This document shows, piece after piece, positions 30,005 to 32,134 of a DNA stretch of 64,000 nt (the stretch's first letter is position 1; every line of letters begins with the position of its first letter). The stretch is from Marinicella marina (lineage in GTDB: Bacteria; Pseudomonadota; Gammaproteobacteria; Xanthomonadales; Marinicellaceae): NCBI RefSeq assembly GCF_030065545.1, contig NZ_JASJNC010000002.1:186001-250000 (forward strand). The letters run 5' to 3'. The notes beneath the pieces are model-generated. The model did no database searches, was not told the origin of the DNA, and was given only the letters and a program-made list of their open reading frames with translations. The position numbers and the translations under genes are program-made.

Positions 30005-32134
30005 ATGAAGACTTTAAAACGCACCCTGTTAATTACAGGGCTATTTGTTGGCATGGGTGCTTGTGCAGCGGAACAAGCTGCCGAAAAAGACCCATTAGCC
30101 ACTCACAAAGCAGAGATGAAAGCAGGCGCCACTGATTTAGCCAGCCAGATGGCTGCTGGGGAACAGGTTTATAACACCTATTGTGCAGCTTGTCACCAGA
30201 CCACTGGTGCTGGCTTAGGTACAGCTTTTCCACCTCTGGCAGATTCGGATTATCTGTTGGCAGATAAAGACCGTGCCATCAATGTGGTGCTGGGCGGACT
30301 CAAAGGCGAAATCACTGTCAATGGTAAAAAATTCAATGCCGTGATGCCCAACCTGGCTTACTTGAATGATGAGCAAGTGGCCAATGTGGTGACTTATGTA
30401 ATGAACAGCTGGGGCAACGAGGGCTATGTGGTCAGTGCAGCAGAGGTCATGGCGGCACGCAACAAAGAAGTTGAAGTGGCTGCAGATGCGGCTGCAGATC
30501 ATCCGGTGACAGGGGAGTCTGAAGCAGCTTATAAGGGCACGGTTTCAGCGATCAATCCTGAGGACACCATCCAGATGATTGATTCAGATGGTCCAGCCAT
30601 GAGTAAGGATGAATTTGCCTTTGCCACTAAGATTTATTTTGAACGTTGTGCGGGTTGTCATGGGGTTTTACGTAAGGGTGCCACCGGTAAAGCGTTGACC
30701 ACTGATATCACCCGTGAAAAAGGCCTTGATTACCTTAAAACCTTGATTACTTATGGTTCTGCTGCAGGCATGCCCAATTGGGGTACCTCAGGTGATTTCA
30801 CTGTTGAAGAAATCGATACTTTGGCAAAATTCTTACAACATGAGCCGCCAGAGCCGCCACAGTGGGGCATGCAGGAAATGAAAGACAGTTGGAAAGTTTT
30901 GGTGGATCCTGCGGACCGTCCAAAGAAACCACAACATAAGTTAAATTATGAGAACTTTTTTGCGGTGACCCTTCGTGATTCAGGTGAAGTGGCCATCATT
31001 GATGGTGACACCAAAGAGATTGTCAGCATCCTTAAGACCGGCTATGCCGTTCATATTTCAAGACCTTCGGCATCCAGTCGTTACTTTTACACCATAGGTC
31101 GCGATGCCAAAGTGGACATGATTGATTTGTTCATGAATCCACCACAAATTGTGGCGACCATCAAGGTTGGCTTGGAAGCTCGCTCCGTTGAGACTTCTAA
31201 ATACAAAGGTTATGAAGATAAATATGCCATTGCTGGCGCTTATTGGCCGCCACAGTACACCATCATGGATGGTGATACTTTGGAACCTAAGCGGATTGTA
31301 TCAACCCGTGGTATGACTGTAGATACCCAAGAGTACCATCCAGAACCTCGGGTGGCAGCGATTGTGGCCTCTCACCAGCACCCTGAATTCATTGTAAACA
31401 TTAAAGAGACAGGTAAAATTTTGCTGGTCAATTATGCTGATATTGAAAGTTTGACAGTGACCACCATTGATGCAGCGCGTTTTTTACATGACGGTGGTTG
31501 GGATCGCAGCAAGCGGTATTTCCTCACCGCGGCTAATCAGTCGGATAAGATTGCGGTGGTTGACTCTAAAGATCGTAAGTTGGTGGCATTAACTGACGTG
31601 GATAAAATTCCACACCCAGGTCGTGGCGCCAACGTTGAGGACCCTGAATTTGGACCGGTATGGATTACCAGCGCATTAGGGAATGACAAAATCACTTTCC
31701 TCAGTACTGATGCTTCCAGTGAAAATGCTTGGCAAGTGGTCAGAACCCTTAATGGTCAAGGCGGCGGTTCCTTGTTTGTTAAATCACATCCAAAATCACA
31801 AAACTTGTGGGTTGATTCACCACTGAATCCCGACCCTGCCATTTCACAAAGCGTGGCAGTATATGATGTCAATGACTTTGATGCAGGCTTTGAAGTATTG
31901 CCAATAGCCGAGTGGGCTGATCTGGGTGAGGGTGCCAAACGAGTGGTGCAACCTGAGTACAACATGAAAGGCGATGAAGTGTGGTTTTCGGTGTGGAACG
32001 GCAAGGAACAGAAATCAGCCATTGTGGTGGTAGATGATAAAACCCGCAAACTTAAACATGTCATTAAAGATGAACGTTTGATTACCCCTACCGGTAAATT
32101 CAATGTTCATAACACTGTTGAAGATGTTTATTGA
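30005..32134 (+). CDS. nirS: Cytochrome cd1 nitrite reductase with extra N-terminal cytochrome c domain
   Basis: A 709-residue protein, longer than the usual 560-600. After the export signal (with MGAC at 17-20, a possible lipobox) comes a first cytochrome c domain with Cys60-Ala-Ala-Cys63-His64, then a second, canonical NirS cytochrome c domain with Cys215-Ala-Gly-Cys218-His219 ([17 protein letters not shown]). The eight-bladed haem d1 propeller follows from about 300 and ends [13 protein letters not shown]. It reduces nitrite to NO in the periplasm. The first domain ([20 protein letters not shown]) resembles the cytochrome c domain fused to some copper nitrite reductases and may be a tethered electron donor. 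AGGAG precedes the ATG. No haem d1 genes are nearby. Confidence 0.96.

Follow-up and report, generated by a model that had tools for sequence, protein, structure and literature searches.

A two-haem cytochrome cd1 nitrite reductase beside a haem-type TonB-dependent receptor in Marinicella marina, and its possible reliance on imported haem d1

The closest known counterparts of the Marinicella marina enzyme analyzed here are the canonical cytochrome cd1 nitrite reductases (NirS) of P. aeruginosa and Paracoccus, which it resembles in its c and d1 domains, its haem ligands, the pocket residues examined, and its fold. It differs from them in an extra haem c domain, in the nondetection of nirF, nirN, nirJ, and nirDLGH, and in the presence of an adjacent haem-type receptor. 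The closest counterpart of the extra domain is the cytochrome c tether found on copper nitrite reductases (NirK; PDB 6qpv/3ziy, presumably R. pickettii NirK, and others; 2zoo), which is located at the C terminus of the copper enzyme, whereas the domain described here forms the N-terminal part of a cd1 enzyme. TonB-dependent receptors that scavenge cofactors include BtuB for B12 and PqqU for PQQ, and the logic proposed below for the Marinicella receptor is the same, namely, an importer in place of biosynthesis. PhuR-type receptors resemble the latter in family cutoffs and fold; the Marinicella receptor differs in its position beside nirS, in its FNR/DNR-like boxes, in having neither His nor Tyr at the PhuR ligand columns, and in having no periplasmic-binding-protein, permease, or HugZ partners nearby. 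The His-Tyr motif of PhuR is described in the accessible portion of PMC12670364.

A NirS fusion in which d1 is preceded by two cytochrome c domains (C1-C2-NirS) was reported by Schwartz 2022 (PMC8756737), where the accessible text calls it unique to Chloroflexi, and is cited in that of Pold 2024 (PMC10999283). It shares its domain order with the Marinicella enzyme. In the portion of PMC8756737 covered, the 20 kb around the Chloroflexi examples contain no further denitrification genes, and no haem receptor is mentioned, whereas the Marinicella locus has one. A gammaproteobacterial fusion is not mentioned in the covered text of either paper, nor was a description of a gammaproteobacterial c-c-d1 NirS found in those parts of the literature that were searched. 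Open-licence full texts, as far as covered, returned nothing on haem d1 uptake or auxotrophy, on d1 together with TonB-dependent receptors, or on nirS without nirF; pure-culture nitrite data for these species were likewise not found in the portion of the literature searched.

The window (the whole 64,000-nucleotide stretch of M. marina DNA that was analyzed: RefSeq assembly GCF_030065545.1, contig NZ_JASJNC010000002.1, positions 186,001 to 250,000) contains the receptor gene and nirS side by side, with the following features:

27674..29860, plus strand: TonB-dependent receptor of the haem/haemoglobin (PhuR-like) family, the proposed haem d1 importer (Pfam, NCBIfam, PhuR match, and fold)
30005..32134, plus strand: nirS, encoding a c-c-d1 cytochrome cd1 nitrite reductase of 709 aa (ORF, Pfam, and PDB matches)
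30053..30064, plus strand: possible lipobox M17-G-A-C20 (MGAC), at the end of the signal peptide
30152..30412, plus strand: extra N-terminal cytochrome c domain, residues 50-136, with C60/C63/H64 and M114 (Pfam, PDB, and alignment)
30626..30835, plus strand: canonical NirS cytochrome c domain, residues 208-277, with C215/C218/H219 and M256 (Pfam, PDB, and alignment)
30944..32116, plus strand: d1 propeller, residues 314-704, with H350/H495/H537 equivalent to P. aeruginosa His182/327/369 (Pfam, alignment, and fold)

The two CxxCH motifs and 709 residues given in an earlier note on this DNA are confirmed in the ORF at 30005-32134, the motifs being CAACH at residues 60-64 and CAGCH at residues 215-219. 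Pfam assigns Cytochrom_C to residues 50-136 (9.1e-18), Cytochrome_CBB3 to residues 208-277, and Cytochrom_D1 to residues 314-704 (5.1e-144). Since residues 173-709 match P. aeruginosa NirS through to its C terminus (E of 8.5e-253), the N-terminal part, to about residue 172, is an addition. The features by which NirS is recognized (the haem c CxxCH motif, the axial Met, the equivalents of the d1 ligands His182/327/369, and the d1 propeller) are all present. The AlphaFold model of the protein (66-row alignment) has a mean pLDDT of 81 and is confident at roughly residues 41-150 and across most of the propeller; the linker at residues 157-189 is of low confidence, the second haem c domain has weak spots, and the model carries no information on inter-haem distance. 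When this model was queried with Foldseek, NirS was retrieved first, followed by NirN and NirF, the fold being that of 6tpo/1nir. The residues H350, H495, H537, R324, R366, R540, and W664, which a pairwise alignment of the NirS proteins maps to P. aeruginosa His182, His327, His369, Arg156, Arg198, Arg372, and Trp498 (residue set from the accessible text of PMC7278500), are invariant in 66/66 rows of our NirS alignment, A1. With every d1-pocket residue examined retained, the protein looks built for d1.

For the extra domain, the resemblance to NirK-tethered cytochrome c proposed in the earlier note holds. For residues 38-163, the best match is a NirK-tethered cytochrome c (E of 2.1e-31). In a PDB search of the extra domain, such cytochromes again come first (E of 1.2e-32), with Thermus c552 as the next-best relative; of the 30 PDB sequences at E of ≤1e-3, none is named NirC, and a NirC-like extra domain has no support from these matches. 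Both the sequence relationship and the CxxCH and Met residues of the NirK-type tethered cytochrome are thus found in this domain. Residues C60, C63, and H64 and the candidate axial M114 are kept in 57/57 two-haem rows of A1, which argues that the extra domain is not a product of chance. The MGAC motif, suggested earlier as a membrane anchor, has Met at position -3. Anchoring of the Marinicella protein by this lipobox is plausible, as judged from the location of the motif at the end of the signal peptide and from the motifs of near relatives (VGAC, LQAC, ISAC, and ASAC, seen by eye in both Marinicella and most Woeseiaceae rows). As a family feature, a lipid anchor was rejected because the motif is limited to certain lineages: by eye it is absent from the Pseudidiomarina and Kangiella rows and from many Lysobacterales, and a loose lipobox pattern matches 37 of the 69 listed two-haem loci, in some cases away from the end of the signal peptide.

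Scanning of GTDB contigs for NirS loci yielded at least 80, and 69 of the 80 listed encode two CxxCH motifs. The objection foreseen in the earlier note, that the domain might be an ordinary N-terminal extension in close relatives, is therefore half right: the extension is standard there, but it is a real haem domain. Hosts of two-haem NirS include Marinicella, Woeseiaceae, Wenzhouxiangella, Lysobacterales, Steroidobacteraceae, Pseudidiomarina, and Kangiella, among others, and, beyond these, two Acidobacteriota (L023 and L026), a Verrucomicrobiota metagenome-assembled genome (MAG; L058), and an Alcaligenaceae strain (L070). On a quick NirS tree (120 rows, shared part of the protein, LG+G4, SH-aLRT support only), the fusion label needs 3 changes, and the fusion is essentially one clade. 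Four c-d1 rows are nested inside the fusion clade, three of them from Halieaceae or Haliea, and one locus (L112) is a separate two-haem case outside it. The latter (L112 6888-8882), whose genome has d1 genes, encodes a NirS of 664 aa with CxxCH at residues 35 and 170. One locus with a stop inside the frame (L074) was excluded from the tree and the counts. As far as these sequences go, c-c-d1 NirS forms a large, mostly gammaproteobacterial clade, and NirS with two cytochrome c domains is not confined to Chloroflexi, whatever becomes of the proposal on d1 uptake.

Of the canonical nir set, NirF, NirN, NirJ, and NirDLGH were searched for in the Marinicella genome, and none was detected. PF02239, which detects NirS, NirF, and NirN, has a single match in this genome (E of ≤0.001), NirS itself; the best score for NirJ with TIGR04051 is 42 bits versus a cutoff of 515, and PF17805, used for NirDLGH, gives 0 matches. 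An incomplete assembly is an unlikely cause, given that the genome is 99.75% complete and that isolate genomes agree. When 50 of the genomes behind the 80 listed loci were tested with all three markers (PF02239, the NirJ model, and PF17805), the markers were concordant in all 50, being together present in 9 and together absent in 41. A NirJ score of more than 350 bits was taken as presence; the curated cutoff is passed by 7 of the 9 positives, the genomes of L058 and L071 fall under it (370 and 363 bits), and the highest NirJ-like score among the 41 marker-negative genomes is 190 bits (genome of L026). All three markers are missing in 38/40 c-c-d1 genomes. They are present in Sulfidibacter (L023), in the Verrucomicrobiota MAG (L058), and in 7/10 c-d1 genomes, the other three being those of Thiothrix caldifontis and two Haliea. 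For the remaining 30 genomes, PF02239 alone was used, and NirF/NirN-type matches were found only in that of L062; a second match in the genome of L065 (217 bits, 824 aa) was counted as not NirF. In sum, 66 of the 69 listed c-c-d1 loci lie in genomes without NirF/NirN.

The receptor gene adjoins nirS on the upstream side. Its product has the plug and β-barrel of a TonB-dependent haem receptor and passes both NCBIfam cutoffs for such receptors (TIGR01786, 327.3 versus 323.75; TIGR01785, 322.6 versus 316.85), as do 5 of the 7 nirS-linked receptors tested, those of L053 and L072 failing. PhuR is the closest solved relative of the family profile (E of 6e-166) and is matched by the AlphaFold model of the receptor (pLDDT of 87.5) at a TM of 0.87. 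Across 39 receptors, the columns of the PhuR His and Tyr ligands (124 and 503 of the Marinicella receptor) contain 0/39 His and 0/39 Tyr. Loss of these ligands as a mark of d1 specificity was rejected, since receptor relatives in NirS-less genomes are without them too. In ten genomes searched with the receptor profile, the nirS-linked receptor of this subfamily scores 715 to 965 bits, and other receptors passing E of ≤1e-30 score 108 to 224 bits, bar one second copy. Wenzhouxiangella sediminis (L098) has a second receptor copy of 809 bits away from any nirS, and Sulfidibacter has a receptor of 545 bits, also away from nirS. In a survey of 369 genomes (described below), the closest relatives in NirS-less genomes score 775 to 794 bits versus 824 to 984 bits for nirS-linked receptors. 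These relatives come from four genomes in which PF02239 has no match at E of ≤1e-40; the receptors of L152 to L155 are likewise close relatives away from any nirS. The subfamily is therefore not nirS exclusive, and the idea that the receptor is restricted to NirS genomes was rejected.

Adjacency of receptor and nirS was scored at 117 nirS loci, using a loose criterion of a receptor within 2.5 kb. A receptor was found at 70/74 loci from genomes lacking d1 genes (d1-less loci) versus 1/43 d1-having loci; with a strict criterion (≥300 bits, ≤500 bp), the counts are 61/72 versus 0/43. Two rows (L077 and L137) are the same locus, such that the 43 are effectively 42, and rows with <1 kb of flank in which no receptor turned up, L080 among them, were excluded. 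The receptor profile was built from the receptors of the first loci, mostly nirS linked, and a broader profile gave the same answer: among d1-having loci, it finds only the receptor of L069 and that of L023, 3 kb off. In L069, where the receptor lies 264 bp from nirS, the d1 genes are in a bin that is possibly mixed. At L026 and L056, both the d1 genes and a nearby receptor are missing; L028 has a receptor-like ORF only at 3 kb from nirS, and L047 has a short flank. The placement of the receptor varies (upstream and codirectional, divergent, or downstream on either strand), which indicates that adjacency has been kept through rearrangement. The c-c-d1 loci with d1 genes (L023, L058, L062, and L112) have no receptor within 2.5 kb, and c-d1 loci without d1 genes do have one, at 58 bp in Thiothrix (L075) and at ∼2 kb in Haliea (L072 and L076). 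As judged from these loci, a nearby receptor goes with missing d1 genes and not with the fusion as such. The receptors near the d1-less c-d1 NirS of Thiothrix and Haliea (L075 4091-6037, L072 3741-5885, and L076 3693-5780), like those of L038, L049, and L052, belong to other subfamilies, and Thiothrix and Haliea are possible independent cases of d1 uptake. Work by Trubitsyn in 2014 on Thiothrix may bear on the former.

Because the first set of loci was picked by similarity to the Marinicella NirS, a survey of 369 Gammaproteobacteria, drawn evenly and including the Marinicella genome, was added. PF02239 matches (E of ≤1e-40) occur in 74 genomes, and the 41 with a NirS above 470 bits were followed; the remaining 33, with lower scores (NirN, NirF, or divergent NirS), are outside the counts. 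Five of the 41 have no second PF02239 match, and all five encode a two-haem NirS with an adjacent receptor (830 to 1028 bits in four genomes and 965 in Marinicella); these are the top 5 matches of the receptor profile across the 369 genomes. PF17805 is absent in the five and present in 35 of the 36 NirS genomes with a second PF02239 match, the exception being a 75% complete genome. Only one of the 36 (L112) has a two-CxxCH NirS. Fisher p-values (1e-21 to 6e-26) were set aside because the rows are related. Corrected for kinship, the first comparison contains 6 independent contrasts, of which 4.5 on average agree and none are opposed (sign test, median p of 0.06); by the strict criterion, 4.1 agree (p of 0.125). 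The main clade may represent one evolutionary event.

We consider it probable that the locus serves a bacterium unable to make haem d1 as a compact module for nitrite reduction, with the receptor as the putative d1 importer. In this scheme, other denitrifiers would release haem d1 or a late precursor, the receptor would carry it across the outer membrane into the periplasm, and apo-NirS would capture d1 there. The accessible text of PMC13168839 describes d1 insertion into NirS as periplasmic and NirF as essential; as insertion is normally periplasmic, an inner-membrane importer would not be needed. In keeping with a cargo that stays in the periplasm, HmuT-, HmuU-, or HugZ-like ORFs occur near nirS in 1/75 d1-less loci (L070) and not in the window; HmuV-like ABC ATPases were left out of this count as too general. 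The tethered cytochrome would take electrons from the respiratory chain and pass them to the second haem c and on to d1, thus standing in for a donor of the nir operon. The suggestion in the earlier note that the enzyme needs no separate donor goes further than this, as the tethered cytochrome must itself be reduced by something. The proposal assumes free haem d1 in nature. With confidence only a little above even, we further suggest that d1 is a traded cofactor, comparable to B12, with Woeseiaceae and others carrying a portable two-gene kit and other denitrifiers supplying d1. In genome surveys, nirS counts as a sign of nitrite respiration. If the proposal is true, carriers of this nirS would reduce nitrite only in the company of other bacteria, and denitrification by these sediment bacteria (Woeseiaceae with the kit are marine-sediment bacteria) would hinge on an exchanged cofactor. 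Haem d1 would also gain a transport protein and be shown to leave cells, and nitrite reduction would have a two-gene route for moving between bacteria.

The alternative that survives best, although we judge it unlikely, is that unrecognized, nonhomologous enzymes make haem d1 and that the receptor imports ordinary haem or iron under denitrifying conditions. Undetected known genes do not amount to an absent pathway, and the receptor does belong to a haem-uptake family, distant relatives of which (G309 and G196) sit in HmuTUV-HugZ-like operons (names by eye), as fits a haem-carrying family. Replacement of the whole pathway would nonetheless have to explain why three known markers vanish together and why, by eye, no tetrapyrrole-enzyme look-alike is among the 16 neighbour clusters found most often around d1-less nirS. 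Makers of d1 need haem and iron too, yet none of the 36 d1-having survey genomes has the receptor in its nirS flanks (0/36; 0.3 to ∼8.6 kb per side). Furthermore, ferrochelatase is present in 15/15 d1-less genomes tested, indicating that ordinary haem is made and that these bacteria are not haem auxotrophs. The FNR-like boxes also speak against this alternative. These boxes and the denitrification genes of the window are as follows:

18504-18517: FNR-like box before norC (pattern search)
18617..20475, plus strand: norC and norB (assigned on the basis of Pfam domains and gene order)
20503-21312, plus strand: norQ (Pfam)
21711-23594, plus strand: norD (assigned on the basis of a VWA domain and gene order)
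23601..24803, minus strand: nnrS (PF05940)
27600..27613, plus strand: FNR/DNR-like box TTGATGCAGGTCAA, with 1 mismatch, 60 bp upstream of the start codon (ATG) of the receptor gene (pattern search)
29876..29889, plus strand: FNR/DNR-like box TTGACCTATATCAA, with 1 mismatch, 115 bp upstream of the start codon (ATG) of nirS (pattern search)
32253..32960, minus strand: Crp/Fnr-family regulator, candidate DNR (Pfam cNMP_binding and HTH_Crp_2)

FNR/DNR-like boxes also precede the porin ORF in the window. Upstream of receptor ORFs, an FNR-like box was found in 32/56 cases (the 56 including two halves of one broken gene) versus 16.7% of random pieces; the pattern with 2 mismatches is common by chance (112 matches versus 64 expected). 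The candidate DNR scores under the cutoff of every NCBIfam model that it matches. One d1-less locus, L070 (Yanghanlia), has a divergent receptor by nirS (4997-7791) with a HugZ-like ORF just upstream and appears closer to ordinary haem use.

Less probable still is a propeller holding another tetrapyrrole (haem b, imported or home-made, or sirohaem) with a function other than nitrite reduction. This would accommodate the nondetection of a known d1 source in the Marinicella genome, but the seven pocket residues listed above are invariant in these proteins alongside d1-making relatives. The nine c-d1 rows of A1, with and without d1 genes, are all 69 to 73% identical to the Marinicella NirS, and the d1-making and d1-less kinds interleave in the NirS tree; norCB and nnrS, moreover, are close by. 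We give very little credence to a reading in which NirS is ordinary apart from its fused donor and has the usual cofactor supply: the fusion is real and coexists with d1 genes in L023, L058, L062, and L112, but such genes are undetected in a genome as complete as that of Marinicella and NirF/NirN are missing from nearly all of the listed c-c-d1 genomes. Equally remote is a hitchhiking receptor that by chance became part of the denitrification regulon of an ancestor and has since been passed on together with nirS, for which the single main clade and few independent contrasts leave room, but against which stand an adjacency kept though the arrangement differs, the lack of a receptor within 2.5 kb of nested c-c-d1 loci with d1 genes, and the repetition of the pattern with other receptor subfamilies in Thiothrix and Haliea.

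Several further ORFs of the window were noted. A ribonucleotide reductase (Ribonuc_red_lgC, 25010-27553), presumably of class II, lies between nnrS and the receptor gene. A role of the receptor as a B12 importer for this enzyme is disfavoured, as no copy of the reductase gene turned up at the other 80 listed loci (0/80; ≤8 kb per side, E of ≤1e-10) and receptor-nirS adjacency persists there. An outer-membrane channel of the PF13372 (Alginate_exp) type is encoded ahead of norCB (17157-18413), and neighbours of this type form a cluster near nirS in 26/74 d1-less loci; the channel is possibly a porin for nitrite or nitrate, or for the cofactor. Between norQ and norD, an ORF of 126 aa (21327-21707) looks membrane-like by eye and has a 33% match to an ORF of L077. 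Finally, an ORF of 1446 aa (1766-6106) resembles, by eye, a hybrid sensor kinase whose N-terminal part has propeller-like repeats.
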